DNA from: a virus
Reading direction: 5' to 3' (one strand)
Length of the DNA stretch: 38,574 nucleotides
Virus record (IMG/VR): IMGVR_UViG_3300033143_005499
Location: 1 to 38,574 of that record
Of this stretch, positions 9,505-34,233 are shown piece after piece. Under the pieces are notes generated by a model that ran no database searches, was not told the DNA's origin, and saw only the letters and a program-made list of their open reading frames with translations. Every line of letters starts with the position of its first letter. The stretch's first letter is position 1. The position numbers were made by a program, and so were the translations under genes.

Positions 9505-9690
9505 ATGAAGAATCCCAAAATATACGAAATGCAATTACATGATGAAACTTATCTTGGTGATGATCTGTTTGTAACAAGAGTTCCTGGCGGTTGGGTATAT
9601 ACACAAGTTGTTACTGAAGGTAGCGGTGATCAAAATGTTAGATTTGCTGTTTTTGTGCCTTTCAGTAAAGAGTTTATAGACAGGGAATAA
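9505..9690 (+). CDS. Hypothetical 61-residue protein
   Basis: Preceded by GAGGTGA at good spacing. Compact and probably all-beta: 'TYLGDDLFVTRVPGGWVYTQ' then 'FAVFVPFSKEF'. The RVPGGWVY stretch reminds me of small phage and plasmid proteins of unknown role, but I do not recognise a named family. First gene of the cargo region after the terminator. Confidence 0.55.
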   Translation: MKNPKIYEMQLHDETYLGDDLFVTRVPGGWVYTQVVTEGSGDQNVRFAVFVPFSKEFIDRE

Positions 9691-9705
9691 TTTTAGGAAA
9701 ATATT

Positions 9706-9861
9706 ATGAAAAAAGAAATAAAAATAGGTTATGATTGGCAGCCTGAAGATGCTTATTTCGCTATTACGAAATTGTTAAAAGAATTAGGTGTTGAATTTGA
9801 TGAATTTGATGAAGAATATATGCGTATTGAATATGAAATACCGGAATTGTTAGGAGAATAA
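9706..9861 (+). CDS. Hypothetical acidic 51-residue protein
   Basis: ATG at 9706 follows an AGGA motif 8 bases upstream and the frame ends at TAA 9859-9861. The product starts MKKEIKIGYDWQPE and has an acidic second half (EFDEFDEEYM). Its end (TTAGGAGAATAA) supplies the ribosome site for the next glycosyltransferase. No family recognised. Confidence 0.5.
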   Translation: MKKEIKIGYDWQPEDAYFAITKLLKELGVEFDEFDEEYMRIEYEIPELLGE

Positions 9862-9862
9862 T

Positions 9863-10777
9863 ATCAATATACTTTTCAATGCATCAAAATGTTGTTTGGG
9901 ACCAAATGGTGGTTCGAAAACGATAATTAAATCTGCCGAAACATTAAATCAATTAGGCCATGGGTCAATAATTTGGTCACCAATAAATAATTATATTTGG
10001 CATAAACCAAATGTTGTAATTGAAACAACAAGAGACGCTAATTTGTTTAATGCTGTTGATTGTATAGTAAATGTATCAGTTTGGGATGTACAAAGTACTA
10101 TAGACTTTTCATGTAATAAATGTAACAACAAAGTATGGTATTTACGAGGTTGGGAGGCCTGGGTTAAAGGTGAACAATACCTAATAGACCAAATCAAAAA
10201 ATTTGTCAATGCCGGTGGTAGGATGATATGTAATTCTTCCTGGCTAATTAATCAGTTGAAAGAAAAGTGTAATGTTGAAAGTGTTCTTTGTTGGTCGGGA
10301 CTGGACCTTGATTTTTGGAGACCACACACAGAATTAAGATATGATATTGGTTTTATGAAATACAAAAGGCACGAGACAAAAAGAAATGATTTGATGGAGA
10401 ATATTGCAGGGTTAAGAAAAGTGAAATCATTTGAAGTCAATATAAAATCTAATTTAGATGACTATAAATTGAGATGTGTTTATTCTGATTGCAAAATGTG
10501 GTTTTGTCCCACAGAAAACGAAGGATTTCATAATGTCGGTGCAGAAGCTAATTTATGTGGCTGTCTTATTTTTTGTAATCGTATGCAGTCTAACGGGATG
10601 TCTGATTATGCGACTGAAGAAACAGCGGAACGTTTTTCCGATTGGGATGAATTACTCAAAAAATTATCAAAGCCAGACTTTGACAAAATTCCTAAAATGC
10701 AGAAATTGTTAAAAGAGAAGATTGGATCTCGTGAAACTAATATGAAACGTTTCGTAAAAATGTTGGAGGAAAAATGA
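9863..10777 (+). CDS. Glycosyltransferase, GT4-like (GT-B fold), with unusual start
   Basis: About 304 residues. The natural N-terminus '(M)NILFNASKCCLGPNGGSKT' begins at ATC 9863, six bases after GGAG; the first ordinary start is TTG 9896, which would cut off the first beta strand. Either ATC is used or an ATG was miscalled. The C-terminal part has the GT4-like signature 'WFCPTENEGFHNVGAEAN' followed by a GC-L-I segment, where the glutamates bind the sugar nucleotide. It should move a sugar from an NDP donor to an unknown acceptor. The end overlaps the next gene by 4 bp. Confidence 0.7.
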   Translation: MNILFNASKCCLGPNGGSKTIIKSAETLNQLGHGSIIWSPINNYIWHKPNVVIETTRDANLFNAVDCIVNVSVWDVQSTIDFSCNKCNNKVWYLRGWEAWVKGEQYLIDQIKKFVNAGGRMICNSSWLINQLKEKCNVESVLCWSGLDLDFWRPHTELRYDIGFMKYKRHETKRNDLMENIAGLRKVKSFEVNIKSNLDDYKLRCVYSDCKMWFCPTENEGFHNVGAEANLCGCLIFCNRMQSNGMSDYATEETAERFSDWDELLKKLSKPDFDKIPKMQKLLKEKIGSRETNMKRFVKMLEEK

Positions 10778-11159: not shown

Positions 11160-11377
11160 TGGTAAAGTTTAAAGTCTTTAGTTTTGATAGTGAGTCTTGG
11201 AGGATTAATCAATTCCAAAACAGGGTTAATGAATTTTTGAATTCTCATGAAATATTAGATGTGAAATGTGAACAGCATTCAGAAAAAATAGAAACATGGT
11301 TTGATGCAAAGTCTGAGTATTATATCAGTTATATTGTAAAATACAAAACTAAAAACAATGTAAGTATTACACAATGA
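11159..11377 (+). CDS. Small protein resembling the Cse60-like family
   Basis: 72 residues: 'VKFKVFSF' strand, a helix ('FQNRVNEFLNSHEILDVKCE') and a final strand ('YYISYIVKYK'). This beta-alpha-beta layout with a N-F-L-x..-E-I-L/I-D-V pattern recalls Cse60-like small proteins found in Firmicutes and phages. Role unknown. Overlaps its neighbours by 1 and 4 bp. Confidence 0.5.
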   Translation: MVKFKVFSFDSESWRINQFQNRVNEFLNSHEILDVKCEQHSEKIETWFDAKSEYYISYIVKYKTKNNVSITQ

Positions 11378-11982
11378 AAAAATTCATAGATAAATGTTTT
11401 CAAGAAGTTCCCATCAAGGGAATAATACATATTGGAGCTCATGAACTACAGGAAAGAAAGCATTATCTAAAACATGGTATTGGTAAAATTGTCTGGATTG
11501 AAGCTAATGGTCCACTTGCTGCAAAGTATAAAGAAAGGATTGATTCTACTAACGAAATAATAATTAATCACGTAATAGGTAGATATGATAGAGAAGATGT
11601 GATATTCAGAAAATCAAGTAATAATGAATGTTCATCTTCTGTTTTTGAATTTTCCGGCCATAAAGAAATGTATCCTCATGTTAAAGAAAAAAAATGTGAA
11701 AAGAGAATGTCGTTTACTTTAGACTATATTTTGTCAATTTATAACATTAATCCTGAAGATTACAACATGTTAGTTTTAGATTGCGAGGGATCGGAATTAA
11801 ATGTATTAAAAGGCGCTGGAAATTATTTAAAAACGTGTGATTATATCATTACGGAGGTTGCATTTACAGAACTTTGGAAAGGCGGTTGTACTTTTGACCA
11901 GATTGACAAATGTTTAACAAATAACAGCTGCTTTGAAAACCGTACTCATACCGATATGTTTTATGTTAGGAACAAAAAATGA
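11374..11982 (+). CDS. FkbM-family methyltransferase
   Basis: 202 residues. The AdoMet-binding first strand is 'GIIHIGAHELQERKHY' (15-30), with a following acidic strand end (WIEAN). 'MLVLDCEGSELNVLKGA' (about 130-146) is the FkbM hallmark (D-x-E-G-x-E-x-x-x-L-x-G). The family O-methylates sugar hydroxyls on glycans and antibiotics. Overlaps neighbours by 4 bp on both sides. A second, diverged FkbM gene occurs at 21117. Confidence 0.8.
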   Translation: MKKFIDKCFQEVPIKGIIHIGAHELQERKHYLKHGIGKIVWIEANGPLAAKYKERIDSTNEIIINHVIGRYDREDVIFRKSSNNECSSSVFEFSGHKEMYPHVKEKKCEKRMSFTLDYILSIYNINPEDYNMLVLDCEGSELNVLKGAGNYLKTCDYIITEVAFTELWKGGCTFDQIDKCLTNNSCFENRTHTDMFYVRNKK

Positions 11983-12392
11983 AATATCCATATCTGATAG
12001 TTATTTATGGCCGGTTTCAAGATGCCGAAAACAAAAAACAGCAATTAATGATCGACGAAAAATGTACTTGCGGATATAGGCCTTATGCAAAAAAATTCGG
12101 AGAAATCATTTACCTTGCACCGCAAAAAGTAAAAGAACCGTGGGAAAAGTCAATAACAAAACAAATAGAATTGTTTCAATATCTTAAAACTAAACCGAAT
12201 AGCATTGTTTGGTCAGTTAAATTTGATCCACAAAAAGATGTTGTATTAAAAGACCTTCCAAATAAAAAAGTATACTATTCCTGTTGTTCGAGAAATATGA
12301 TTAATAGTTTTTGTGATATTAGTTTAGTTGATACCGAGAACCGCTTAGAACGTAACGCAAGACTTTGGGTAAAAGGTAAAGATCCTGATTAA
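11979..12392 (+). pseudogene. Glycosyltransferase, N-terminal part of a frameshifted gene
   Basis: 137 residues that look like a GT-B N-terminal domain: an initial 'YPYLIVIYGRFQDAENKKQQ' and a final 'NARLWVKGKDPD' that in related proteins runs straight into the second domain. Here the frame stops at TAA 12390-12392. Adding one T to the TT at 12389-12390 would read DLKIRHSKHKVVCTP and join it to the downstream ORF. Whether the break is real or a read error cannot be decided here. Confidence 0.55.
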
Positions 12393-12790
12393 AGATTAGA
12401 CATTCGAAACATAAAGTGGTATGCACTCCTTTCCTGTCTATGGACCAGGTAAGACAACATATTCCATTGGCTAAGATTGGGATACTATTGACAGAGCATC
12501 CAGCCGAAGGTTTTCCTCAAAGCGTTTTAGAGATGGCTATGTGCGGATTACCGGTTATTTATTTAGCAAGTGCACCGAGTAACAAATATTACAAAAGAAT
12601 AATAATACAAATTAAAGAGAAACATGAAATCAGAAAAAAAGCAATAGAGACATTAAATAGTTATCACAATTTAGCAAAAGATGATGCTGATTGGGGATAT
12701 TATTTTAGGGAATGTGCAAAAAATCATTATTCACTTGAAAAGAGCTACGAAAGCATTTTAAAAGGACTTAACTATAAATGCACAAAGTAA
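12389..12790 (+). pseudogene. Glycosyltransferase, C-terminal part of a frameshifted gene
   Basis: Continuation of the preceding gene in another frame; the first standalone start would be GTG 12416 (124 residues). It has the GT-B C-terminal signature 'TEHPAEGFPQSVLEMAMCG', whose glutamate pair binds the nucleotide-sugar. Repaired, the whole gene would be about 270 residues, close to other glycosyltransferases here. It overlaps the next gene by 13 bp, so translation of the second half may still be coupled. Confidence 0.55.
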
Positions 12791-13530
12791 TAACAATGAG
12801 TGATAGAGACTATTTTCAATACGGGAAATACTTTCTTCAAACCAGGAACAGAATTAATGCTGATTTTGTTTTGTATACTTCTAATTTAACCGGTGAACAA
12901 ATAAAGATCTGTAGGAAGCATGATATAGAAGTAAAGTTTGTTAATTCGAAAATTTGGGAATTGAGAATGCAGACTTTGAAGTTTCGGTTTTTGTTGGAGG
13001 AATTATCTCTTGAAGTAAACTGCTTTTGTGATTTTGACACATTTTTTCTAAAAGATTTTATACGCATTATATTACATCAACAAAATGATTTTAGTTTAGG
13101 GATAACAACGACAGAAGGATATAAACAGAATGTTTATGATAGAGCAAAGGCAAACGGTGGTGTAATATTTGCCTATAGTAATAGTGTATGGATATTAAAA
13201 TTTGCTATTAAATGTATTAATTTGGGAGGCCATAAAGATTTACCTGAATACGATCAAATATGGAAAACGCTTGAAGATCCGAAAAGAGCTGAACATAAAC
13301 GACATTCAAGGTGGAATCAAAGATGGTGGTGTGATCAGGTGTTTTTGTCCGCATTAGTATTAGCAAAAGATAGATTTGATGTGTCATTGTTCCCCTGTAA
13401 AAAATTCAATGCATTAGATGCGGATCCAAGTATAATTGATAATCCTGGATGTGTAATTAAGGATAATGGTGTTGTTGAGAATGACATTTATATTGGGCAT
13501 TTAAAGAATTCCGGCAGAGGGAAAATTTGA
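12778..13530 (+). CDS. GT-A type glycosyltransferase with DFD motif
   Basis: 250 residues. 'VNCFCDFDTFFLKDF' contains the metal-binding DxD (85-87), preceded by the typical 'LKFRFLLEEL' helix, as in nucleotide-diphospho-sugar transferases that use small-protein or sugar acceptors. A 'WNQRWWCDQVFLSALV' segment (residues 179-194) fits the acceptor-side D-Q motif. The end 'IGHLKNSGRGKI' supplies the H found after the DxD in many GT-A enzymes. Overlaps the next TTG start by 4 bp. Confidence 0.7.
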   Translation: MHKVITMSDRDYFQYGKYFLQTRNRINADFVLYTSNLTGEQIKICRKHDIEVKFVNSKIWELRMQTLKFRFLLEELSLEVNCFCDFDTFFLKDFIRIILHQQNDFSLGITTTEGYKQNVYDRAKANGGVIFAYSNSVWILKFAIKCINLGGHKDLPEYDQIWKTLEDPKRAEHKRHSRWNQRWWCDQVFLSALVLAKDRFDVSLFPCKKFNALDADPSIIDNPGCVIKDNGVVENDIYIGHLKNSGRGKI

Positions 13531-14270
13531 TAGTATCAATTAATAGAAACGGTCTTTGCAATCGCATTAAATCATTAGTAACCGCAATGGTATACGATGA
13601 TAATGCAAGGGTGTATTGGCAGGAATCACAAAAGGTTAATTGTCATTTCAGTGATTTATTTGAAAACAAAATATATCTATCAGGAATTCCATCAGGAGCA
13701 AAGGTATGTGGTTCATGGGAATGGTTATTTATGAAGGGGAAAGGAAAACCAGAAATAGATTTTCTTTATAATAAAACTCCACAAAAATATATTGATATGA
13801 TACTTCCAAAGATTTTGACATTAGTACCTACAAAGAAGATAAAGCGGAAAATAAACAGATTCGTGATAGAGAACGAACTTGATAAGCCATTTACGACGAT
13901 TAGTTTACGAACATGGAACAGAGCGTTTAAAAGAGCAAATAGGCGAATAACTAATATAACAGATACATATCGAGTGATTTGGCAAATAGACCAAAAAGAA
14001 AAAATATTATTAACTTGTGATGATAAAGATACAATAGAAAAAATAGTTGAAAAATTCCCTGATCGTGATATTGTTTACTTTCCAAAAGAAAGTTATGATA
14101 CCGAAAGAACTGGGATTCAAGGTGCGTTGGCAGAGCTTTGTTGTGGTAGTTACTGCAGGAAGTTGTATGCTTCTTATCGCAGTACCTTTAGTGAAATCCA
14201 ATGGTGGATAGGTGGGTGCAAGGCTGAAGTTGAAGTGTTTAATGAATATAAGCAGATTCGGAGAGAGTGA
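13527..14270 (+). CDS. Fucosyltransferase-like glycosyltransferase (copy 1)
   Basis: 247 residues with a TTG start overlapping the previous stop (TTGA). The N-terminus 'INRNGLCNRIKSLVTAM' is the G-L-C/G-N-R-L/I signature of GT-B fucosyltransferase-like proteins (NodZ/O-fucosyltransferase/GT11 group). 'SLRTWNRAFKRANR' stands where the H/S-x-R-x-W motif contacts GDP-sugar, and 'YASYRSTFSEIQWWI' near the end matches the conserved S-x-F-S/A region. Same family as the gene at 19655. Donor sugar uncertain. Confidence 0.65.
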   Translation: MIVSINRNGLCNRIKSLVTAMVYDDNARVYWQESQKVNCHFSDLFENKIYLSGIPSGAKVCGSWEWLFMKGKGKPEIDFLYNKTPQKYIDMILPKILTLVPTKKIKRKINRFVIENELDKPFTTISLRTWNRAFKRANRRITNITDTYRVIWQIDQKEKILLTCDDKDTIEKIVEKFPDRDIVYFPKESYDTERTGIQGALAELCCGSYCRKLYASYRSTFSEIQWWIGGCKAEVEVFNEYKQIRRE

Positions 14271-14271
14271 T

Positions 14272-14463
14272 ATGCAAACAATAAATCGTTGTTTATTTGA
14301 CGGGTTATGTGATAGCGATGTAGGTAATATGGGAGATATTCTTGATAAAATTGACGAAATAGTTAATTGGATAAATAGCTTTGAAGATGGGTTTAAAAAG
14401 GGTTGCAATAACAAAGCATTCGATGATGTCATTGAAGCTTTTAATGAACAATGGGGTAAATAA
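14272..14463 (+). CDS. Hypothetical 63-residue protein
   Basis: I choose ATG 14272, which follows GGAGAGAG just after the previous stop, over the upstream in-frame start at 14212 that would overlap the fucosyltransferase by 59 bases. Helical and acidic, with two cysteines near the N-terminus (NRCLFDGLCDSD). No family recognised. Overlaps the following methyltransferase start by one base. Confidence 0.5.
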   Translation: MQTINRCLFDGLCDSDVGNMGDILDKIDEIVNWINSFEDGFKKGCNNKAFDDVIEAFNEQWGK

Positions 14464-14954
14464 TGAATGAACTAACAGAATTAGCCAACAAATACGGAAC
14501 CGATAAAGGCAATTTGAAACATGCCTATACTTATATCTATTCTGATTATTTTGAGCACATGATGAATGACGATTTGAAAATATTGGAAATAGGTGTTGAC
14601 GATGGAGCGAGTATAAAAATGTGGTTGGATTATTTTCCTTGTTCGGTTATTTACGGGTTAGATGTTTTGAGCAATCCATTGCCATCGATTGGGAGGTATT
14701 TGCATTTTAAAATCGATCAATTGGAATGGGCAAAAACCATGAAAAATGAATTGTTTAGATATGACATAATAATAGACGATGGGTCACACGAATTAGATAC
14801 AACTATTCAAACATACGAAAATCTAAAAAACAGTTTCACTAAATATTATTTCATAGAAGATCTGGACGCGAAGAGAAGTAAACGTGCTATGAAAATATTC
14901 CAGGACAAAGGATTTAAAAAACTTTCAGCTAAATTGGCGGTATTTGAGAAATGA
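14463..14954 (+). CDS. Class I AdoMet methyltransferase (macrocin O-methyltransferase-like)
   Basis: 163 residues. 'LTELANKYGTDKGNLKHAYT' at the N-terminus is characteristic of the macrocin/demethylmacrocin-type sugar O-methyltransferases. It is followed by 'ILEIGVDDGASIKMW' (motif I) and 'YGLDV', then 'YDIIIDDGSHELDTT' with the acidic metal/substrate residues. Shorter than the usual family length, with a brief C-terminus. Likely methylates a sugar hydroxyl. Overlaps neighbours by 1 and 4 bp. Confidence 0.75.
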   Translation: MNELTELANKYGTDKGNLKHAYTYIYSDYFEHMMNDDLKILEIGVDDGASIKMWLDYFPCSVIYGLDVLSNPLPSIGRYLHFKIDQLEWAKTMKNELFRYDIIIDDGSHELDTTIQTYENLKNSFTKYYFIEDLDAKRSKRAMKIFQDKGFKKLSAKLAVFEK

Positions 14955-15211
14955 TTACAATAAAAAAGAAAGCTAAATATGTGAATATAGAAGGAGTAAA
15001 CACAATTGGAGAGAATAGGAAAGTTGTAGGAACGATTGAACTTTCCATAAAATTAGATGAAGATGTCGAGAAAGAAGCTGTTAGTATACAAGAAAAATCG
15101 TTATCGTTTATTGAAGCAATAGGCGTGTTTTTGAAAGATGCAATAGAAACTGAGAGTATGATGTGGGATGATGAGGAAAACAAAGCTTGTGAATTGGATA
15201 TAGAGTTATGA
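14951..15211 (+). CDS. Hypothetical 86-residue acidic protein
   Basis: A first half of beta strands ('AKYVNIEGVNTIGENRKVVG', then 'TIELSIKLDEDVE') and a helical acidic end ('MWDDEENKACELDIEL'). The pattern suggests a small beta-sandwich, but no named family is recognised. Overlaps both neighbours by 4 bp. Confidence 0.5.
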   Translation: MITIKKKAKYVNIEGVNTIGENRKVVGTIELSIKLDEDVEKEAVSIQEKSLSFIEAIGVFLKDAIETESMMWDDEENKACELDIEL

Positions 15212-15978
15212 AAATCGATTTTACATGTACAGCAATGCCAGTACCTGAATTAATGGAACGGTGCTTTAAATCACTAAAGAGAAATTTAATTGGAATTGAT
15301 TTAAAAAAGTGTAATATATGTGTATCTCTTGACAATTTTCCCGATGTGTCAAGGCGTTTGTTACATGCGCAATTTGGGAAAATATATGAGTTATTATATA
15401 AATATTTTGGGGACAATGCAATTGGTTTTTGTGAAGATTTTAGTAATAGTGTAAGGAATTGTTTTTTGTCGGTCAGAACAGATATAATTTTCCATTTTGA
15501 ATATGATTGGGAGCTGACAAAGCCAATTAACGTTGATGAAATTATACAAAAGTTCTCACAGTCTCCTAATTTGTATCAAGTCCCATTAAGGGCATATAGC
15601 TATGATTACCCGGCATTATGTTTAAGCCCGTCATTTCTACATAAGAGATTCTATAAACCATTTGCAAGAAATATGAATATCAATAGGAATCCAGAAGCTG
15701 AAATGCATACCGGGAAAATAGGAATATTTTTACCTAATAGAAATAGTTGTAAACAGGCTGGTGTAAAAGTTACTGATTATATCCAGGCATATCCTGAAGA
15801 AAATAACGATATAGTATTAAAAGATATTGGCCGGGAATGGTTAGGGAATTCGCCATATATGAAACCGCAGGATTTACCTAAAACGGATCCGCGATATAAA
15901 AAGAAGAGTGAATTTATTAAATGGATTAAACGCAATGAAAATGAGGATTGTTTGGAATGGTTGGCAAAAACAATTTAA
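15208..15978 (+). CDS. GT-A-like glycosyltransferase (DIGREW family, copy 1)
   Basis: 256 residues. N-terminal strand 'IDFTCTAMPVPELMERCFKS' resembles GT2-type folds. 'IIFHFEYDWEL' takes the position of the DxD loop, as EYDW, and 'DIGREWLGNSP' lies towards the C-terminus. The gene at 29966 has the matching pair MEDDW and VEDIGREW, so the two belong to one family I cannot name. Likely transfers a sugar from an NDP donor, with the acidic residues binding metal. The next gene overlaps its end by 22 bp. Confidence 0.6.
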   Translation: MKIDFTCTAMPVPELMERCFKSLKRNLIGIDLKKCNICVSLDNFPDVSRRLLHAQFGKIYELLYKYFGDNAIGFCEDFSNSVRNCFLSVRTDIIFHFEYDWELTKPINVDEIIQKFSQSPNLYQVPLRAYSYDYPALCLSPSFLHKRFYKPFARNMNINRNPEAEMHTGKIGIFLPNRNSCKQAGVKVTDYIQAYPEENNDIVLKDIGREWLGNSPYMKPQDLPKTDPRYKKKSEFIKWIKRNENEDCLEWLAKTI

Positions 15979-16823
15979 ATATCTATACCTTTATTACTCG
16001 TAATAGTAAAGTATATGCAGAATTGCTATATAAAAGTATGGAAAAGCTTAAAAGCGATGGAAATAACATTCTCTATTGGTGTGTGAAAACATATGATACG
16101 TTTGAGAAAAGTTACCCTCTGCCTGATGGATGGGAATGTATAGGAGAATCAGGTAATTGTGGCCATAATTCTCTAAATCATGCAATGGCAATACACAAAG
16201 CTTTGGAGCATGTTAAAAAAAACCGATGCAGATATGTAATATTCTGTGATCCTGATATTTGCATATTGTATAAAGACTGGGATAAAGTTATCAGGAAACA
16301 GTTAGAAAAAGTCCAGTTTTTTGGGACTGCTTTTCAGGAAGGATCAAAGTTTTACCAAAAATTCCCTAATGTGTTTTTCTTTTGTTTCCGGCGGCATGTA
16401 CTCAATATGGCTAATTTAGATTTTAAACCCCGGATAATAAAAGGATTGGATTCACCGGTAAGAAAAGTGATTAAAGGCAAAAGGGACGTTAAAGCATATA
16501 ACATGCCCGGAGGATCAATCCTTAAGTGTGATACCGGCTACAAATTGCCTGAGATAGCCTATAATTATAGTTTGTATTCTAATTACATGCCAATGGTATT
16601 AGGAAAAGATAATAATTCCCAATTACCGTTTAATGTATCAATAACACAATATGAATTATGTATGAAAAAACCGACTCATATGGCCGAGTTTCATTATAAT
16701 GGAAAACTATTCTGCTCGCACAAACAGGCTAGCCGGAATCATCCATTAAATAAGGAATATGGAAAAGCCTGGAAAGATAGAATTGATTTATATACTCAAA
16801 AGGAATTTGGATGGCAGCTGTAG
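15957..16823 (+). CDS. GT-A-like glycosyltransferase (RIDLYT-KEFG family, copy 1)
   Basis: 288 residues from ATG 15957; an in-frame TTG at 15948 would add three. GAGG lies 10 bases upstream of the ATG. 'YVIFCDPDICIL' holds the DPD metal motif (98-100). The end 'WKDRIDLYTQKEFGWQL' and the start 'NIYTFITRNSKVYAELL' are shared with the gene at 17515, so they are diverged copies. Role: sugar transfer, acceptor unknown. Confidence 0.65.
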   Translation: MVGKNNLNIYTFITRNSKVYAELLYKSMEKLKSDGNNILYWCVKTYDTFEKSYPLPDGWECIGESGNCGHNSLNHAMAIHKALEHVKKNRCRYVIFCDPDICILYKDWDKVIRKQLEKVQFFGTAFQEGSKFYQKFPNVFFFCFRRHVLNMANLDFKPRIIKGLDSPVRKVIKGKRDVKAYNMPGGSILKCDTGYKLPEIAYNYSLYSNYMPMVLGKDNNSQLPFNVSITQYELCMKKPTHMAEFHYNGKLFCSHKQASRNHPLNKEYGKAWKDRIDLYTQKEFGWQL

Positions 16824-17002: not shown

Positions 17003-17011
17003 GGAGAAATT

Positions 17012-17518
17012 ATGATTGACAAAAAAACATGTAAAATAGCACATATACCTATAATAGAAGAAATAGCAAAAGGGTTAAAATGGGCTGGAATGAATGAGGC
17101 GTATCTTGAATTGGGAATTGCTCGTGCTCGATGCTTTAATCGTGTATCGACTTATTTTACCCATTCGGTTGCTGTAGACAGAAGTGCCGATTCATTAAAA
17201 AACATTACTGTTCAATGTGACAAAAACGATATGACAACAGATGATTATTTCCGGCAAAATTATCATGAAAGGACTAAATTCAACCTAATATTCATTGATG
17301 CAAGGCACCGATACGAAAACGTTAAAAGAGACTTTGATAATTCGTGGGAGTATTTAGCTAAGTTTGGCATAATCCTTATTCACGACACCTTTGCCCCAAG
17401 CAAAGAATGGGAAAAGCACACATTGGATTGCTGGAAAATACAGAATCATTTAGACGAAAGGAAAATTAAATATATTACTTTTCCTTTTTACTTTGGTTTA
17501 ACGGTGGTTCGGAAATGA
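17012..17518 (+). CDS. Class I methyltransferase (Methyltransf_24-like)
   Basis: 168 residues, AAGGAG 7 bases before the ATG. 'AYLELGIARARCFNRV' is motif I (normally E-x-G); 'HSVAVDRSADSL' follows; 'FNLIFIDARHRYENVKRDF' (F-x-D-x-x-H-x-Y) and 'GIILIHDTF' are typical of small sugar- or polyketide-tailoring O-methyltransferases, where the aspartates and histidine bind metal and substrate. Overlaps the next gene by 4 bp. Confidence 0.75.
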   Translation: MIDKKTCKIAHIPIIEEIAKGLKWAGMNEAYLELGIARARCFNRVSTYFTHSVAVDRSADSLKNITVQCDKNDMTTDDYFRQNYHERTKFNLIFIDARHRYENVKRDFDNSWEYLAKFGIILIHDTFAPSKEWEKHTLDCWKIQNHLDERKIKYITFPFYFGLTVVRK

Positions 17519-27170: not shown

Positions 27171-27176
27171 TAAACT

Positions 27177-27830
27177 ATGAATCTTTTATTTCAACAAATA
27201 GCAAATACAACAGTAACTGAAATACTATGCAGTACTCAAATGGATGGAATAGTCCTTGATACAGAGCACGGGTATTTTAACAACGAAACTTTAGTTGACT
27301 GTATCCGGGTAATAAAATTGTCTGGTAAGCAAGCTTTTGTTAGGATGAAAATTGACCAGCAATTGGCGCAATTGTGTATTGATAATAGTATTAATGGAAT
27401 CATTTTGTCAGATGTTAGGTATCCAAGCGATTCAATAAAAGAATATATCGGATGTGGATTAGTAAAAAACAATTTTTGGGGAATGAAAGATTTAAGTACC
27501 AGGAAAACCTCGTTAATTGCACAAATAGAATCAAGAGAAGCTATTGATCGAATTGAAGACAACGACTGGCTTTTTGTGTATGACTATCTTATGATAGGCA
27601 TGTATGATTTATCACAAAAATATGGTTGTTTCGGTGATTTCGATAACAGAAAGTTTATGGAAGCAATAGAAAGATTTGAAAAAAATGTTGGAAGAAAAAG
27701 ACGTGGAATTCATTTAGTAAAAGATATTGATAGTGATTATGACAAATATAAAGATTATGGATTGAAGGGTTTCTCTCTTGATACTTTGGGGATATTAGAT
27801 CGAGTAAAGGAGTTGAACAAATATGTCTAA
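27177..27830 (+). CDS. HpcH/HpaI-family aldolase
   Basis: 217 residues. 'GIVLDTEHGYF' (24-34) contains the D-x-E-H-G catalytic motif, R56 ('FVRM') the 2-ketoacid-binding arginine, and E118 ('AQIESREA') with D144 ('GMYDLS') the divalent-metal ligands of class II pyruvate aldolases. A shortened form (family usually about 250-270). It joins pyruvate or a related 2-ketoacid to an aldehyde, giving a 2-keto-3-deoxy acid, which is the chemical precursor of ulosonic acids. The downstream SDR gene starts 8 bp before its end. Confidence 0.8.
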   Translation: MNLLFQQIANTTVTEILCSTQMDGIVLDTEHGYFNNETLVDCIRVIKLSGKQAFVRMKIDQQLAQLCIDNSINGIILSDVRYPSDSIKEYIGCGLVKNNFWGMKDLSTRKTSLIAQIESREAIDRIEDNDWLFVYDYLMIGMYDLSQKYGCFGDFDNRKFMEAIERFEKNVGRKRRGIHLVKDIDSDYDKYKDYGLKGFSLDTLGILDRVKELNKYV

Positions 27831-28644
27831 AATATTAGTCACTGGATGTAATGGCTTTATTGGTAAATATGTTGTCAAAGAATTGGAAAAGACTAGTCAT
27901 AATATAATAGAAACTGACAAAAACAAATTGTTTCTCCAAAAAAGCATTGACGTTAAAGCTTGTTTAAGCCATATAATGCCGGATGTCGTAATTCACACTG
28001 CGGGACTTGCTCATTTAGGCCAATGTAATAACAGCCCGATTGAAGCAGTAGAAGTAAACATCTTTGGAACTGCTAATTTGCTCCAGGCATGTAGAATATG
28101 TAGAGCAAAAAGAATTATATATATATCCTCATCTTACGTATTTTCAAAAGAGGGTGGAATATACAAAGTGTGTAAAAAAGCTTGCGAAGATTTGATTCGG
28201 GAATATTACAATCTTTATAGTCTCAATTATACTATTATAAGATGTGGTACAGTTTATGGTGTCGGATCAGATGAAAACAACGGCATTTACAATTTGGTTC
28301 AAAAGGCAAAGAAAAGCGAATTGGATAATATAAATAGCCCAGGGACGAATTCTTACTTTAATTCAGTTAGAGAATATATCCATGTTACAGATATTGCAAA
28401 GGGAATTGTAAAATCATTAGAAGACAAATATATCAATAAAGAGTTATTACTTTCAGGGACACAAACTAAAACAGAAGAAGAGATAATTGACATGTTAAAA
28501 GAAATGGTTATCGATAAACGTAATAAGAACGGGCACTATAACAAGATTCCTTATTCATACCAACCAATACAAAACGAAAAGTTAACATTAGATTCATACA
28601 AAGATTTAGGCGCAGGATTACTTGAAATGATGGAGAATGAATAA
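27823..28644 (+). CDS. NAD-dependent epimerase/dehydratase (extended SDR)
   Basis: 273 residues. Nucleotide-binding 'TGCNGFIG' (7-14), catalytic S near 103-104 ('YISSSYVFS') and Y114-x-x-x-K118 ('YKVCK'). 'VREYIHVTDIAKGIV' is typical of sugar-nucleotide epimerases and reductases. Strong ribosome site (AAGGAG) 9 bases upstream. By position it may oxidise, reduce or epimerise the aldolase product or its nucleotide form. One base overlap with the cytidylyltransferase. Confidence 0.8.
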   Translation: MSKILVTGCNGFIGKYVVKELEKTSHNIIETDKNKLFLQKSIDVKACLSHIMPDVVIHTAGLAHLGQCNNSPIEAVEVNIFGTANLLQACRICRAKRIIYISSSYVFSKEGGIYKVCKKACEDLIREYYNLYSLNYTIIRCGTVYGVGSDENNGIYNLVQKAKKSELDNINSPGTNSYFNSVREYIHVTDIAKGIVKSLEDKYINKELLLSGTQTKTEEEIIDMLKEMVIDKRNKNGHYNKIPYSYQPIQNEKLTLDSYKDLGAGLLEMMENE

Positions 28645-29366
28645 TGTCTGAATGCATAATAATACCAGCAAGATATGAATCAACTAGATTCCCAGGGAAA
28701 CCGCTTGCTAAAATTAATGGCAAAGAAATGATATTGCATGTTGTAGAAAGATGTTGTCAAGCATTGCCTAAAAAAGATGTTTATATTGCTACTGACAATT
28801 TAAAAATTGCCGATTGTTGTACAGGTGAAGGTTGCCAAGTATTAATGACACCAAAATGTGAAACCGGTATGATTCGAGCTGCAGAAGCAGCAAAATATCT
28901 TGATTATGAGATTATTGTTAATGTCCAGGGAGATGAACCATTAGTTGATCCTGAAGACATTAGAAACGTCATTAAACTAAAAAAAAAATATCCAGATACT
29001 GCTATTAATTGCTATGGGATTGTCCATACAGAACACGAAGATATAAATAATCCTAATACGATTAAAGTTTTAATACTAAATAATCGTCTTTTGTATATGT
29101 CGAGGTCACCAATACCGTATAATTCAAAAGGCTGGTATTCAAAACAAATATGTATTTATGCTTTTTATCGCACACAATTGTTGTCATTATACGAAAACAG
29201 ATATTCTATTAAAAAAATGTCTTATGAAGATTGCGAAGGTATTGATATACTTAGATGCGTTGAACATGACAAACCAGTATATATGCATCGAATTACAAAT
29301 ATTTACCAATCCGTTGATATTCCTGAAGACATATCGAAAGTAGAAAAAATATTAAATGAAAAATAA
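28644..29366 (+). CDS. kdsB: CMP-KDO synthetase-like cytidylyltransferase
   Basis: 240 residues. 'IPARYESTRFPGKPLAKING' (7-26) is the KdsB nucleotide-binding signature. 'IVNVQGDEPLVDPEDI' (91-106) has the metal-binding aspartate, and 'NPNTIKVL' and 'SRSPIPY' (153-159) are further KdsB landmarks. The usual SG-T-D-R segment is altered to 'CETGMIRAAEAA' (72-83). The enzyme activates a 3-deoxy-ulosonic acid with CTP. A different but related acid is possible given that change. The next gene overlaps by 11 bp. Confidence 0.75.
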   Translation: MSECIIIPARYESTRFPGKPLAKINGKEMILHVVERCCQALPKKDVYIATDNLKIADCCTGEGCQVLMTPKCETGMIRAAEAAKYLDYEIIVNVQGDEPLVDPEDIRNVIKLKKKYPDTAINCYGIVHTEHEDINNPNTIKVLILNNRLLYMSRSPIPYNSKGWYSKQICIYAFYRTQLLSLYENRYSIKKMSYEDCEGIDILRCVEHDKPVYMHRITNIYQSVDIPEDISKVEKILNEK

Positions 29367-29757
29367 TCCAGCTTATCCTAATGCAGATGAAACAATTTGT
29401 CTTGATTTTGACGGCATTATTCATGACGACCATTTAGGTTATCATGATGGATCTGTTTATGGAGAGCCTTTTTATCAAGCAGTTTGGGGCCTTAAAATAT
29501 TAAAAGTTTTATTTGAAAAAATAGTAATATGTTCAACAAAAGCAAGGCTTGACCGACCTAAAATTAATGGTAAAACAGGAAGACAGTTAATTGTTAATTG
29601 GCTTGTTGATAATGATTTAAGTGCATATATAAATGAAGTGACAGCAGAAAAACCACCGGCAAAATATTACATAGATGATAGGTCGATAGGATTTGAAAAA
29701 GACAAAAACAAACGATGGAAATATATTCTCACTGAAATTATTAAGGAAGAATTTTAA
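29356..29757 (+). CDS. HAD-like phosphatase
   Basis: 133 residues. 'ICLDFDGIIHDD' (14-25) is HAD motif I, 'VICSTKA' (57-63) stands at motif II and 'YYIDDRSIGF' near 104-113 at the C-terminal D-D motif. Small, without a cap domain. Directly after the cytidylyltransferase, so it may remove the phosphate in the ulosonate pathway, the role KdsC plays in KDO synthesis. Polynucleotide 3'-phosphatase-type relatives are an alternative. One-base overlap with the next gene. Confidence 0.75.
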   Translation: MKNNPAYPNADETICLDFDGIIHDDHLGYHDGSVYGEPFYQAVWGLKILKVLFEKIVICSTKARLDRPKINGKTGRQLIVNWLVDNDLSAYINEVTAEKPPAKYYIDDRSIGFEKDKNKRWKYILTEIIKEEF

Positions 29758-29969
29758 TGGAAAGAGATAATTTATTATTGAGAGGATGTAAAAGTCTCCC
29801 AGAAGAACTATGTGAAAATTATGAAACATGGGTATGCGAACCAATAATTAAATACCCACTATCTCCGAGATGGGCAAAATTAATATTAACTATTGTTGGC
29901 GAAATGCTTTTAAAGGGAATGCCTGTTTCGGAAATCGTTTTATTGTTAGAAAGTAAAAAGAAATTATGA
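29757..29969 (+). CDS. Hypothetical 70-residue helical protein
   Basis: Helical with a conserved-looking 'PLSPRWAKLILTIVGEMLLK' segment (35-54) and a short C-terminal helix. No membrane helix is certain and no family is recognised. Overlaps neighbours by 1 and 4 bp. Confidence 0.45.
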   Translation: MERDNLLLRGCKSLPEELCENYETWVCEPIIKYPLSPRWAKLILTIVGEMLLKGMPVSEIVLLLESKKKL

Positions 29970-30694
29970 AACAAATTGATTTATGTATTGTGGCTACTTT
30001 AAGGCCAGAGATATTATACAAAACATTATCAAGCTTTGAAAAAATGACAAAATTTGATGGGTTGATAAATTTTGTCATGAACATTGACACTGTTCCTCGA
30101 AAAGAAGCCTATACATTAATTAACGATATTATGAGAATGGGAATTGCTATTGGGTCTTTTAATCCAGCTAAAGCCGAGGTCCATTTCTCTGTGCTTGGTG
30201 AAGGCAATTTCGCTAAAGCAGTAAAAACAGTATGGGAAAATTCAACTTCTGAATATGTTTTTCACATGGAGGATGATTGGAAATTCATTCGAGAAATTGA
30301 TCTAAATAAATGTATAGAAAGGATGGAAAAAGAAAACTTTGATTATATGCGTTTTCCAAAGGTCCATGCTCCACATTTGAACTGTATGCACAAGGTAGCA
30401 TTGCAACCAAGTCTATGGAAAGGCGATGTTGTTAGAAGGCTTGCAAAGCATATGAGAATAGATAAAGATCCTGAGAAGCAATTAAGGGCAGGTCAGGGCA
30501 ATGAAGAATTGGATAAAGTATTATTCGAGATACAGAAAAAGGGATTAAAGGATTATTGTTCAGAATGGTGTGTTGAGGACATCGGCCGGGAATGGCGGGA
30601 TAAACAAGGCTTAATGAAATGGAATGCTGTTGAGCCTGGAAAAGAAAATAAGAATAATCAGAATGCTAAAAATGTTACTTGGTGGAAAAGATGA
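29966..30694 (+). CDS. GT-A-like glycosyltransferase (DIGREW family, copy 2)
   Basis: 242 residues. 'IDLCIVATLRPEILYKTLSS' resembles a GT2 first strand. 'YVFHMEDDWKFI' carries the acidic metal motif (M-E-D-D-W) and 'VEDIGREWRDKQGLMKWN' the second family motif, both also found in the 15208 gene. The preceding 'KIDKDPEKQLRAGQGNEELD' type region is family-specific. Its stop overlaps the ATG of the cysteine-rich ORF (ATGA). Confidence 0.65.
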   Translation: MKQIDLCIVATLRPEILYKTLSSFEKMTKFDGLINFVMNIDTVPRKEAYTLINDIMRMGIAIGSFNPAKAEVHFSVLGEGNFAKAVKTVWENSTSEYVFHMEDDWKFIREIDLNKCIERMEKENFDYMRFPKVHAPHLNCMHKVALQPSLWKGDVVRRLAKHMRIDKDPEKQLRAGQGNEELDKVLFEIQKKGLKDYCSEWCVEDIGREWRDKQGLMKWNAVEPGKENKNNQNAKNVTWWKR

Positions 30695-30876
30695 ACGGAA
30701 CTTTATGCGTAAATTGCAATCAGAAAAAACATGAATGTAAACATTGGGGATATTGTTGCAATTGGCATCAGCGCAAAAACAATTGCGGAGATTGTGCCTT
30801 AACCTCTGCAAATGTAGGTCGATGTCCTTTAGGATTGGTAGATTTTAGACTTATGGAGAGAATGTGTAATGAATAA
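30691..30876 (+). CDS. Cysteine-rich small protein (zinc-binding candidate)
   Basis: 61 residues from ATG 30691, overlapping the preceding stop; an in-frame TTG 12 bases earlier is less likely. Nine cysteines, including 'CVNCNQKKHECKHWGYCC' and 'NNCGDC', in CxxC-like pairs with nearby histidines, suggest two zinc sites. Overlaps the following glycosyltransferase by 8 bp. Confidence 0.5.
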   Translation: MNGTLCVNCNQKKHECKHWGYCCNWHQRKNNCGDCALTSANVGRCPLGLVDFRLMERMCNE

Positions 30877-31906
30877 ATCATGGATGATGTTAAGGGGAGA
30901 AAGCAAAAATCATCAGGAAATAGAAAAAACATATAATGAAGATTCGGATATGTATTGTCAGTTATTTGAAGAGCTTTGTAGTGATGGAGATTTGACTTGG
31001 CTTAATAACAAAGAAAATTTTCCTCCTGTAATAGAGTTTTTAAACAGAGAGATAAATGGTCCATGTAAAACAAAATATGATATAATAACAAGTTCGCCCA
31101 ATCAGATTATTGAATACGCTGAACAACCAGATATGGTTTTTGCCAGAGGAGCTTTTTCTTCATATCTTCCTATACTAAAAGCATGGAAAGATTCTTATAT
31201 CATCAGGTATTCATCTGGCAAGCGATATATGCCTGATCCCGGTATAAATTACAATCTAATATTAGTAGACACTGAAAAACAAAAACAGGAAGTTCTATCA
31301 AAATTTCCTAAATTACGGGTTGAACTTTTCGTGAAGTCAGCAGCTAAACATTTTCACCCTATCGAATGTGAGACTAAATATGATGTATGTTTTATTGCGA
31401 AGCATGGGCATCCTTTCAAGAATATTGATTGGGTTTATCAAACTGTGCCAAAAGATTTATCAATTCTTCATTTAGGTGGAAGAATAGAAGACAATCCTCC
31501 TGACAATGTAACTGTTAAATATGTTGATCGAATTGATATGAATAAATATATCAATCAATGCAATGTCGGAATTGTTCCTTATGAGAATGTTGATTCATGC
31601 CCAAGAGTGATTCCTGAAATGTTAGCTTGTGGATTACCAATTATTTGTTTAGATACGGTTAATATTTGGAAAGAAAAATATTTAATAGATTTTTATTGTC
31701 CAGACGATGAGTATTTTAACGGAGAATATGATTGGGGAAAAATATCCAACAGAAAAGTTTTTTGGAATCGTGTTAGAGAAGGAATAGAAGAAGGCAAAAA
31801 TGATCATTACAAAAGAATTATATCTTCTTATTACAAAGAATATCTTTCAATACCAGTAGCCGCACAATATTTAAAGGATTTGATTAATGAAGAAAAAAGA
31901 GTATAA
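30869..31906 (+). CDS. GT4-like glycosyltransferase (GT-B)
   Basis: 345 residues. The C-terminal domain holds 'VGIVPYENVDSCPRVIPEML' and 'ACGLPIICLDT', the acidic and glycine-rich donor-binding region of GT4-type enzymes. 'YDVCFIAKHGHPFKNIDWVY' (170-190) opens the second Rossmann domain. 'SSGKRYMPDPGINYN' (110-124) is in the first domain. A close fit to the plan of the 9863 gene, but not an obvious recent copy. A 52-residue ORF overlaps its end by 20 bp. Confidence 0.7.
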   Translation: MNKSWMMLRGESKNHQEIEKTYNEDSDMYCQLFEELCSDGDLTWLNNKENFPPVIEFLNREINGPCKTKYDIITSSPNQIIEYAEQPDMVFARGAFSSYLPILKAWKDSYIIRYSSGKRYMPDPGINYNLILVDTEKQKQEVLSKFPKLRVELFVKSAAKHFHPIECETKYDVCFIAKHGHPFKNIDWVYQTVPKDLSILHLGGRIEDNPPDNVTVKYVDRIDMNKYINQCNVGIVPYENVDSCPRVIPEMLACGLPIICLDTVNIWKEKYLIDFYCPDDEYFNGEYDWGKISNRKVFWNRVREGIEEGKNDHYKRIISSYYKEYLSIPVAAQYLKDLINEEKRV

Positions 31907-32045
31907 GTACTTAATAAACATCAAAATTAAAGAAGGCGGGTATATTGTATATGATTACAATAAAAATCCTGCCAGAACTGAAACTATTGGAGAAACGATT
32001 AATCATGTAAAGGAAATTTTAGATAATGAACCTGAATCTAACTAA
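31887..32045 (+). CDS. Hypothetical 52-residue protein
   Basis: ATG 31887 with a 20-bp overlap into the previous gene and a 20-bp overlap with the next. Product 'MKKKEYKYLINIKIKEGGYI...' is basic then acidic, perhaps a small beta-hairpin. No family; supported only by position, with no other reading of this stretch. Confidence 0.4.
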   Translation: MKKKEYKYLINIKIKEGGYIVYDYNKNPARTETIGETINHVKEILDNEPESN

Positions 32046-32283
32046 TATCGTTGTCAAAGTACACTGGGGAGGATTTACTGATATAATAGCAAACACTACT
32101 AAAACTGACGATATAAATCAACCCAATGTTAAAGGTACTGTATTTGTTCAAAAGAAGAGAGTGTTAAAAGAGCAGATTCCATTTAACAAAAAATCAATAT
32201 TGTCAAAATTAGAGAAGTTACTGAGGAATGACGAAAAGTATATCAAAAAATTAATATTAAAAGAGTGGTTGGAGGAAGAATGA
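32026..32283 (+). CDS. Hypothetical 85-residue protein
   Basis: Beta-rich first half ('LTNIVVKVHWGGFTDIIANT') followed by a basic helix ('FNKKSILSKLEKLLRND') and an acidic end. No family recognised. Its stop overlaps the next ATG (ATGA) at 32280. Confidence 0.45.
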   Translation: MNLNLTNIVVKVHWGGFTDIIANTTKTDDINQPNVKGTVFVQKKRVLKEQIPFNKKSILSKLEKLLRNDEKYIKKLILKEWLEEE

Positions 32284-32753
32284 AGGATCCGCGAATAATA
32301 GAAAATTTTGAAAAAAGTGTTGATACTATTTTGTTTAATGATAAAGGAAACAGAAAAGCTATATTGTATTACAAGGTTGGAAGCTCAAGAAGAAAACGAA
32401 AAGCAATGTGGAAATATGTAATTTTCTTTTTTGATTGGTGTAAGGATGTGAAAGAATTAGAGTCAAGAGAATGGACAGGTTTTACCGTTGTGACATTGGC
32501 AAACGATAGATTTTCAGGTGCAAAAGTTCAAAACGGTGACCGGTGGTCATTTGAAAAGGGTTGTTTATATGCTTATATTAAGGTTAAGAAAGTAACATAT
32601 ACAACACCAGCAATAACTAAAAGAACGTATAGTCCAAAATATCAATATACAACATCGGCAGACAACAAATCTATAACGTATGATGCGTTAATGAAAGATT
32701 TTAGGAATCAAATGTATCAATCTCCTTTATCAACAATGTCAGCACAAACATGA
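32280..32753 (+). CDS. Hypothetical 157-residue basic protein
   Basis: ATG 32280 has GGAGGA 4 bases upstream and overlaps the previous stop; the in-frame GTG 32265 is less likely. A mixed fold of three aromatic strands ('YVIFFFDWCKDV', 'WTGFTVVTLAN') and a long polar tail ('TTPAITKRTYSPKYQYTTS'). Function unknown. Overlaps the next gene by 4 bp. Confidence 0.5.
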   Translation: MKDPRIIENFEKSVDTILFNDKGNRKAILYYKVGSSRRKRKAMWKYVIFFFDWCKDVKELESREWTGFTVVTLANDRFSGAKVQNGDRWSFEKGCLYAYIKVKKVTYTTPAITKRTYSPKYQYTTSADNKSITYDALMKDFRNQMYQSPLSTMSAQT

Positions 32754-33532
32754 CAACACTAATAGCCGGACACCATGCAGGAGAATTTGGCCATATGCTT
32801 ATGACTTGGCAAGGAATTATTAGAAAGATGGCTGAAAGATATGATGAAGTTGTTATGGGTTGCGAAAGGCAATATCGTTATTTGTATGAAGATTTTACAG
32901 ACAAATTTAATAGTTTCCATTATGAAATCAAAACTCGTAATATGTGGATGACTAATCAAAGAGTGTATAAACTTGGAGATGATTATACAGATTTTCATTC
33001 TTCTAAAATTGACCATATTTATCCTTCCAGGGAACTATGCCTAAACCCAAAAACAGAACAAAAATTTATTAAGTATGGCAAGTTTGACGAAAACAAAAAA
33101 TTTGATATATTAATTCATGCACGATCTACAGACAATTTGAATACCGGTTACCGAAATTGGCCGATTGTTAAATGGGAAGAATTGGTGTTGAGGTATAATA
33201 AAACAAGAGACATTGCCAGTATTGGATCTAAAGACGGCGCTCATTGGATTAAGGGAACACATGATTTAAGAGGTGTTCCGTTGAATATACTTGCAGATAC
33301 AATGGCATCGAGTACATTATTATTATCACCATCGTCAGGACCGGTATTATTTGGGCTTCTTTGTGGACTAAAAAGTATTGTATGGTCTGACATTCCAGAC
33401 AGAGGATTGTATAACAACAGAGATAGATATTTAAAAATGTGGAATCCTTTTAAAACGCCATGCATATTTATCCCTGAGTGGCAACCGAGTGTTTTATCTA
33501 TTGCAAAAGAGGTTGATAGATGTACCCTATAA
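32750..33532 (+). CDS. GT-B glycosyltransferase resembling GT9 heptosyltransferases
   Basis: 260 residues. 'ILIHARSTDNLNTGYRNWP' (about 120-138), 'IASIGSKDGAHWIKGTHDLRG', then 'LADTMASSTLLLSPSSGP' and 'LFGLLCG' follow the sequence of the second Rossmann domain in heptosyltransferase-type enzymes, including the S-x-S-G-P loop and the L-C-G helix. The N-terminal domain starts 'LIAGHHAGEFGHMLMTWQGI'. Likely uses an NDP-sugar. The next gene begins 13 bp before its end. Confidence 0.6.
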   Translation: MTTLIAGHHAGEFGHMLMTWQGIIRKMAERYDEVVMGCERQYRYLYEDFTDKFNSFHYEIKTRNMWMTNQRVYKLGDDYTDFHSSKIDHIYPSRELCLNPKTEQKFIKYGKFDENKKFDILIHARSTDNLNTGYRNWPIVKWEELVLRYNKTRDIASIGSKDGAHWIKGTHDLRGVPLNILADTMASSTLLLSPSSGPVLFGLLCGLKSIVWSDIPDRGLYNNRDRYLKMWNPFKTPCIFIPEWQPSVLSIAKEVDRCTL

Positions 33533-34233
33533 TGATTACAACATACGAAAGGCCACAATATTTTCAAGAGTGTATTGAATCGTTAATAAAAACAAATGCC
33601 GATTTAAGTAATGTATATGTGTTTGATGACTTTTCTAAGAACAAAGACAAAGAAACATTGCTGTCAAATTACGCCAATCAATTTAATGTGATTTATCGAC
33701 AACGGCAATTAGGGACTACACTAAATACAGTTTGGGCAATTGAGTATCTTTATAACAAATTTCCCGAATCAGAATATATTATTTTTCTTCAGGATGATAT
33801 TATATTTTCAAAAAACTGGTTAAAAAACGGATTGCATATATTAAGAAAAATCGATGAAAAAGAAAACCTTAAAATTGGCTTTTTATGTCTATATAATAAA
33901 AGCAAAAATTCAGAAAAACTATATTATATTCTTCCGAGCGGACATCCTGGTGGTGTTACATGGATAATTAAACGAGAATTCTGGGCTGCTTTTCGAAATA
34001 AATATAATGTAATAGATGAATATTATGTCGATAGAATACCAAAGAATCTTATGAGAAGACATTTTATATTAAATGTTGTAGATTATAAAATAGCACATGC
34101 TGCACATCTTATTAATTGGCACAATGCCAGAGTCGGAAGGTCATTAGTCCAACATATCGGTGATAAAAGCTCTGTAACTAATCGAGACATGACTGAACAT
34201 AGAAGTGATAATTTTGTGGGGGTAAATGCCTAA
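33520..34233 (+). CDS. GT2-family glycosyltransferase
   Basis: 237 residues. 'PIMITTYERPQYFQECIESL' (3-22) is a GT2 first strand and helix, 'VYVFDDFS' (32-39) the first acidic site, and 'YIIFLQDDIIFSKNWL' (about 88-103) the DxD/Q-D-D loop. 'PSGHPGGVTWIIKREFW' follows, the usual second half. Last gene of the cargo. It overlaps the minor head gene by 8 bp, so cargo and head genes are translationally linked at this border. Confidence 0.8.
   Translation: MYPIMITTYERPQYFQECIESLIKTNADLSNVYVFDDFSKNKDKETLLSNYANQFNVIYRQRQLGTTLNTVWAIEYLYNKFPESEYIIFLQDDIIFSKNWLKNGLHILRKIDEKENLKIGFLCLYNKSKNSEKLYYILPSGHPGGVTWIIKREFWAAFRNKYNVIDEYYVDRIPKNLMRRHFILNVVDYKIAHAAHLINWHNARVGRSLVQHIGDKSSVTNRDMTEHRSDNFVGVNA

Follow-up and report, generated by a model that had tools for sequence, protein, structure and literature searches.

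What a tailed phage might do with a long run of glycan genes set among its head genes is the question raised by the window analysed here, the whole 38,574-base virus record IMGVR_UViG_3300033143_005499, which is of metagenomic origin. An earlier note on this DNA, made from its letters, placed the end of a portal gene at 9292 and the start of a gp7-type minor head gene at 34226, with a block of glycan-tailoring genes, all on the + strand, inserted between them; the open reading frames (ORFs) and both borders are as it described. The 24.9 kb between portal and gp7, with every gene on the + strand, is called the island below, and its genes are named by their first base in the window. Comparison with related contigs reveals the island as a standing part of the head genes throughout a clade, with constant edges and an exchangeable centre. 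The explanation favoured here, whose truth we regard as about evenly balanced, is a clade-wide operon in which soluble phage enzymes would build, within the cytoplasm, a tailored oligosaccharide containing a cytidine monophosphate (CMP)-ulosonate-derived sugar and link this glycan to a virion protein.

Relatives were retrieved from IMG/VR with terminase large subunit (TerL), gp7, ParB-like, portal and glycosyltransferase (GT) queries; every clade member is metagenomic, and the analysis concerns assembled sequence only. Island-type glycan genes adjoin the portal gene, the gp7 gene or both in eight contigs including the window (seven lineages), the seven others representing six lineages, and the island is present in all eight clade contigs found that reach the portal–gp7 interval. 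The search of related phages that the earlier note had proposed thus returns islands of the same kind in seven other contigs. Both borders are spanned by four of these (three lineages), with islands of 6.8, 6.8, 16.5 and 25.4 kb. In G1 (3300022220, 60,954 bases), where the TerL of the window has a 60% identical counterpart, the portal ends at 31931 and gp7 starts at 48480, and the 16.5 kb between them hold colinear glycan genes; the genes at the two ends of G1 are neighbours in G2 (3300028920, 57,860 bases), which carries the 25.4 kb island, and the G1 genome is therefore probably complete and permuted. The contig G3 (3300035698) starts within the island, which continues up to gp7, and in L008 (3300032397) and L106 (3300031952) the portal is followed by the first island GT. 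The same arrangement opens the compact 6.8 kb islands of L101 and L102 (3300022548 and 3300010289), which are 99.98% identical and almost certainly represent one virus in two data sets; the order in L101 is a GT, further ORFs (putative GTs), a PIG-L deacetylase, homologues of 29966, 30869, 32750 and 33520, and then gp7.

The island consists of a conserved frame and a variable centre. The core shared by the window, G1, G2 and G3 comprises 9863/9896, 11979+12416, 12778, 15208, 15948, 17012, 20452/22652, 23287 (counted in G3 by tblastn), 23730, 30869, 32750 and 33520, that is, at least nine GT- or methyltransferase-type families together with ParB-like and MptE-like genes, and the order of these genes is equal in all four except for the 15948 family, which is displaced in G2. 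The left edge is constant, with the 9896 family after the portal, and 30869, 32750 and 33520 stand upstream of gp7 in every contig that reaches gp7, small ORFs alone intervening. At the centre of the window, a radical SAM enzyme, a 2-hydroxyacid dehydrogenase, an HpcH aldolase and an epimerase precede the KdsB-type gene; G1, G2 and G3 instead encode a DRE-TIM aldolase (closest solved relative 3dxi, 6e-41), which lies beside the synthetase in G1 and G3, the KdsB-type synthetase of G2 being detected by tblastn only. The centres differ further in a sulfotransferase of its own in G2, another methyltransferase in G1 and the deacetylase in L101. This exchange of non-homologous aldolases near a retained CMP-synthetase would fit a CMP-activated ulosonic acid that differs in kind between phages.

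Island homologues are mostly 26–64% identical between genomes, and the arrangement is therefore old; divergence between genomes is about equal for the core genes and the head genes, and by this measure the island is not a recent foreign block. It accompanies the portal, gp7, scaffold and major capsid protein (MCP) genes even though the terminase differs: the TerL of G2 is 26–30% identical to those of the window and G1 and 57% identical to that of L106, and its portal and gp7 are 44–45% and 47–50% identical, respectively, to those of the window and G1. Seven more distant contigs found via gp7 (L054–L060) have only about 0.6–0.75 kb at this place, with one ORF of 147–209 residues directly upstream of gp7, and in six of the seven this single ORF directly follows the presumed portal ORF, the portal being identified by position; L058 starts too late. 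Given this near-empty junction, the island is most simply a derived feature of the clade of the window, so that the word "inserted" in the earlier note holds relative to these distant phages and not within the clade, where the island is the rule. Searches with 32750, 12778 and gp7 against cultured phages gave no match; the best TerL match (33%) is an uncultured spring-water record, Manatee Spring phage MW202621, in whose portal–minor head interval (L003 15486–21952) 6.5 kb is taken up by unrelated ORFs that match no Pfam family, two of them of about 700 residues. The junction therefore takes other inserts too.

In the window, 37 of the 44 island gene junctions overlap or abut, and the last GT (33520) overlaps the gp7 start by 8 bases, an overlap also found in L101; expression together with the head genes is therefore expected, and by this arrangement the island and the head genes look like one operon. 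Promoter and terminator scans gave no clear excess over shuffled sequence. The flanking head genes, all on the + strand, begin with the terminase small subunit (5777–6361, PHROG_51 5.9e-23) and large subunit (6312–7682, PHROG_2 3.3e-25), followed by the portal protein that forms the left border (7781–9292, PHROG_145 5.9e-16; 44–47% identical in G1 and G2). The right border, a Mu F/SPP1 gp7-type minor head protein (34226–35164), is recognised indirectly: a direct PHROG or Pfam match was not found, and the gene is homologous to L054 9507–10001, which matches the minor head protein family PHROG_115, while a five-member gp7 profile aligns around a CPDC motif with a pair of Phage_Mu_F-type proteins (hhalign, 96% probability), placing minor head homology at the expected position between portal and scaffold. 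The putative scaffold (35660–36478) has syntenic homologues in G1, G2, G3 and L101, its function being suggested by position, and is followed by the MCP (36492–37305, PHROG_212 6.2e-10). The MCP gene of the window is broken into two frames and lacks about 45–50 residues in the middle of the protein, which is intact at 310–313 residues in G1, G2 and G3; the break is an assembly error or real damage, and the short MCP and the split GT4 gene described below may be sequencing errors.

All 14 GT positions listed in the earlier note were recovered, with evidence of differing kinds. Profiles or folds support nine (9896, 11979+12416, 12778 at a sub-threshold score, 15948, 17515, 20452, 22652, 30869 and 33520), so that about nine phage-encoded glycosyltransferases are identified in this way; of the 14, two are assigned by motif and conservation (15208 and 29966) and two by weak similarity (13527 and 19655). 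As a total, 14 is fair with these reservations. The first conserved island gene encodes a GT-B enzyme (9863–10777; PHROG_2170 1.1e-5, with weak similarity to the chlorovirus GT 3oy2, E 0.004), and its family is found in the window, G1, G2, G3, L008, L101 and L106. The listed ORF of this gene starts with TTG at 9896, and a homologous N-terminus continues in frame back to an ATC at 9863, behind TAGGAG, where homologues carry ATG, pointing to a rare start codon or a base error. The GT4 gene (11979–12790, PF00534 5e-4), which the earlier note called frameshifted, is indeed split into two frames in the window (11979–12392 and 12416–12790); it is a single ORF of 307–330 residues in G1, G2, G3 and L106, and the break is therefore specific to the window contig. 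It is followed by a Nucleotid_trans-like GT-A core gene (12778–13530; PF03407 2.7e-4, just under the cutoff), present also in G1, G2, G3 and L106, and by a probable fucosyltransferase-type GT (13527–14270, PHROG_32718) with a homologue in L106 and a paralogue at 19655–20455; a profile of the pair has weak similarity to a plant fucosyltransferase (9nqh, E 0.0014). The core gene at 15208–15978 and its paralogue at 29966–30694 (63% identical in G1, 43% in L101) are putative GT-A enzymes with an E-(D/Y)-D-W motif and no family match, the former being kept in the window, G1, G2 and G3.

The core gene at 15948–16823 is GT6-like (AlphaFold pTM 0.85; Foldseek match to blood-group GT6, E 4e-7, prob 1.0), and a second copy at 17515–18360 is 36% identical to it; neither member of this family has a Pfam match. 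Two core-family genes of the TOD1/MUCI70 type lie at 20452–21120 (PF04765 1.9e-5) and 22652–23290 (PF04765 3.7e-6; PHROG_26101 GT, 3.1e-16). The possible fifteenth GT of the earlier note, called MptE-like, is a core gene at 23730–24377 with moderate fold support (AlphaFold pTM 0.78; Foldseek match to the archaeal MptE 8sd5 with prob 0.98, E 0.0046 and TM 0.44) and a PF01973 score below the cutoff (0.01), and it is a candidate CMP-ulosonate-using transferase. PF01973 also includes Maf-type flagellin GTs. Assignment of 23730 to the GT42 sialyltransferases was considered and rejected, as a PDB profile search gave E 0.31 to a CMP-Neu5Ac transferase and the fold favoured archaeal MptE. The trio at the right edge, all core genes, consists of a GT4-type enzyme (30869–31906; PF13692 3.7e-6; in the window, G1, G2, G3 and L101), a GT9-like enzyme (32750–33532; a bacterial relative matches PF01075 at 5e-7) and a GT2 enzyme (33520–34233, PF00535 1.4e-11) that overlaps the gp7 start codon. 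Relatives of 32750 occur in bacterial polysaccharide loci, one matching GT9 and one adjoining a Wzx-type flippase gene; a scan of bacterial genomes with this family returned single homologues (21–37%) on scattered contigs, many of them metagenome-assembled genomes of the Planctomycetes–Verrucomicrobia–Chlamydiae group, and never the island.

The synthesis and tailoring genes named in the earlier note were largely borne out by profiles. Three of its four methyltransferases have Pfam matches, namely two FkbM-type enzymes (11374–11982, PF05050 8.4e-12; 21117–21830, PF05050 2e-10) and the core Methyltransf_24 enzyme (17012–17518, PF13578 1.6e-9); the fourth (14463–14954) has none and is methyltransferase-like by an LEIGVDDG-type motif. 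Profiles likewise confirm a sulfotransferase (19062–19655, PF03567 1e-13), an AsnB-like amide ligase (21831–22655; PF00733 7e-5, TIGR01536 2.9e-5), a B12-binding radical SAM enzyme (24352–25686; PF04055 2.4e-22, PF02310 8.4e-10) with no homologue in G1, G2 or G3, a 2-hydroxyacid dehydrogenase (25900–26880, PF02826 5.3e-35), an HpcH/HpaI-type 2-keto acid aldolase (27177–27830, PF03328 1.2e-7 and GarL/HpaI models), an NAD-dependent sugar epimerase/dehydratase (27823–28644, PF01370 8.4e-34) and a KdsB-type CMP-ulosonate synthetase (28644–29366; PF02348 1.2e-37, NF003952 207 bits at a cutoff of 193, 1gq9 9e-32). A KdsB-type cytidylyltransferase and a 2-keto acid aldolase, the pair that marks a CMP-ulosonate pathway, are thus both present. 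The family evidence is strong for the two FkbM enzymes, Methyltransf_24, the sulfotransferase, the radical SAM/B12 enzyme, the 2-hydroxyacid dehydrogenase, the epimerase, the KdsB-type synthetase and GT2, and moderate for the GT4 types, the TOD1/MUCI70 types, the HpcH aldolase and the AsnB-like gene. A possible HAD phosphatase (29356–29757) is suggested by a DFDG motif and has no family match. The core gene at 23287–23745 encodes a ParB-N-like protein (PHROG_4715 3.3e-4) that is among the best-conserved of the island, at 61% identity in G1, 50% in G2 and 31% in the G3 contig.

In the favoured explanation, glycosylation of the virion, phage enzymes would first turn the product of an aldolase into an activated ulosonic acid, this product being supplied by the HpcH/HpaI-type aldolase with the 2-hydroxyacid dehydrogenase and the epimerase in the window and by the DRE-TIM-type aldolase in the relatives, and the KdsB-type synthetase would yield the CMP-sugar. 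Soluble GTs (GT2, GT4, GT6-like, GT9-like, TOD1/MUCI70-like and others) would then assemble a cytoplasmic oligosaccharide, using host nucleotide sugars too, which methyl-, sulfo- and amide-transfer enzymes would cap; the finished glycan would be joined to the capsid or a neighbouring virion protein of the same operon, providing a shield or an adhesive surface. Substrates, order of transfer, late expression, acceptor and benefit are, in this scheme, what we infer. It is favoured because the island is transmitted with the head genes despite differing terminases, large membrane or export proteins are absent and DNA-hypermodification genes were not detected, and a virion-protein target is favoured because it needs only soluble cytoplasmic enzymes made alongside the acceptor, which the gene content and operon layout would fit. 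It also has precedents in the virion glycans of mycobacteriophages and chloroviruses described below. By simple hydropathy, the window, G1, G2 and G3 encode neither a large membrane protein nor any protein with at least four membrane spans, and hence no recognisable Wzx, Wzy, ligase or lipid-carrier transferase; no Pfam match to a flippase, polymerase, ABC exporter or lipid-carrier enzyme appeared among the island, G1 and G2 proteins scanned. The earlier note's statement that polymerase, flippase and lipid-carrier transferase are not seen thus extends to all four.

Several points weigh against virion glycosylation. No acceptor protein or glycosylation site was identified and no cultured member of the clade was found; glycans of the cell envelope are the usual setting of KdsB-type CMP sugars and GT9 enzymes; the operon position suggests something of timing, not of target; G2 carries a run of small membrane ORFs of one to three spans just upstream of gp7; and the correlation between island and head gene distances is mixed over five genomes, so that strict co-inheritance is not proven. 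The envelope-type enzymes lend themselves to the main rival, that the target is the glycan of the host cell surface, which the island would remodel in infection, for superinfection exclusion or shielding, by extending or capping host lipid-linked glycans with phage sugars. Large cyanophage sugar clusters are read in this way (the P-SSM2 15-gene cluster, PMC7824862), relatives of 32750 do lie in bacterial glycan loci, and soluble enzymes could supply a host flippase and ligase. However, the phages bring no recognised export, polymerisation, lipid-carrier or ligase gene of their own, placement among head genes and fixation throughout the clade would be strange if the function were exclusion, for which early expression would be wanted, and the cyanophage sets, unlike the conserved frame here, are described as occurring sporadically among related viruses; we therefore hold this rival to be unlikely, if a serious one. 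The interpretation in the earlier note is supported in part: a phage-borne system of soluble glycan enzymes set in the head operon is well supported, and the choice between virion and host surface is not settled by sequence.

The remaining rivals are weaker. Instead of a surface coat, the enzymes could make a small molecule or a glycoconjugate, either soluble or packaged, such as a nucleotide signal or a glycosylated effector, as radical SAM, AsnB-like and FkbM genes are known in natural-product clusters too; those genes, however, have no homologue in G1, G2 and G3, where the conserved core consists of glycosyltransferases, and we think this improbable. Glycosylation of phage DNA as an anti-restriction base hypermodification seems more doubtful still: DNA-glycosylating phage GTs are known (cited in PMC12619734), and helicase and DNA methyltransferase genes are present in the window, but neither a hydroxymethylase of the thymidylate-synthase type nor any other hypermodification family was detected among the G1 and G2 proteins scanned (very small ORFs left out; G1 is apparently complete), and a dozen diverse GTs with a sulfotransferase and an aldolase go far beyond what is needed. 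An assembly chimera with phage ends around a host glycan locus, which the earlier note had named as the finding that would overturn its proposal, might be suspected from the breaks in the contig (the split GT4 gene and the shortened MCP); it is contradicted by the recurrence of the borders and colinear genes in independent contigs and by a uniform composition, with GC (0.30–0.36) and GC skew flat over both borders, and scarcely deserves consideration.

Some further genes of these contigs deserve mention. A small membrane protein at the left edge of the window (2–568) has its sole homologue (32%) inside the G1 glycan island (L006 2880–3539), with no NCBIfam match for the window protein and no Pfam match for the G1 copy. 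Among the head–tail genes of G1, a 651-residue protein with many NVxxGxxA-type repeats (54461–56416; L006 17462–19417) is a candidate fibre, and the small ORFs of G2 with one to three predicted membrane spans stand after the last GT and ahead of gp7 (29898–32279; L070 9898–12279) and are perhaps lysis genes. Outside the island core of the G1/G2 genomes, one protein matches the Thoeris inhibitor Tad5 family (4e-34), and others match ABC-3C defence components MC4/MC2, Imm5-like immunity proteins and long pentapeptide-repeat proteins.

Returning to virion glycosylation, the wider proposal that this phage lineage has made it part of the head module, with a fixed GT frame between portal and gp7 and an exchangeable synthesis and tailoring centre giving each phage a complex coat of its own, is tentative, and we place it a little below an even chance. 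If it is true, up to about 40% of the genome (25 of about 58–61 kb) goes into a sugar coat that the phage makes itself and that is linked to capsid assembly, which would open phage "serotypes", shielding by glycans and adhesion through sugars to testing. The conserved edges (the 9863 GT on the left; 30869-32750-33520-gp7 on the right) offer an easy signature by which to look for cultured members, and enzymes for rare sugars can be drawn from the soluble GT set. Large phage glycan clusters and virion glycosylation are already known; an island fixed in the head operon of a clade, with constant edges and an exchangeable centre, appears undescribed, and no description of a glycan island at the portal–gp7 junction was found among open-licence full texts.

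Among known systems, bacterial capsule and O-antigen loci with CMP-ulosonate genes share the KdsB-type synthetase, aldolase, epimerase, GTs and methyl and sulfo tailoring with the island, and differ in the Wzx/Wzy/ABC export, lipid-carrier and ligase genes, which are not recognised in the phages. The "LPS/capsular polysaccharide" (LPS, lipopolysaccharide) clusters of the P-SSM2 type in T4-like cyanophages are likewise large, with several GT families and nucleotide-sugar enzymes, and are read as host O-antigen modification (PMC7824862); they occur sporadically in T4-like phages, whereas the island lies in the head operon and is conserved throughout a clade of tailed phages that are not related to these and are smaller. 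In mycobacteriophages, the capsid and tail tube bear glycans for which phage GTs are thought responsible (Freeman et al. 2023, as cited in PMC12619734); phage GTs are common to both systems, the glycans being placed on structural proteins there, and the island, known from its genes alone, adds at least a dozen GTs with sugar synthesis, methylation and sulfation between portal and gp7. Comparable too is the autonomous virion glycosylation of chloroviruses and mimiviruses (PMC4691112, PMC9614988), with virus-encoded sugar synthesis and, as in the chloroviruses (PMC4691112), GTs without membrane spans that serve virion glycans. Those are giant viruses of eukaryotes whose capsid is unrelated, and the GT similarity is weak (the match to 3oy2 noted above); if the wider proposal above is true, the island would be to bacterial viruses what autonomous capsid glycosylation is to chloroviruses.

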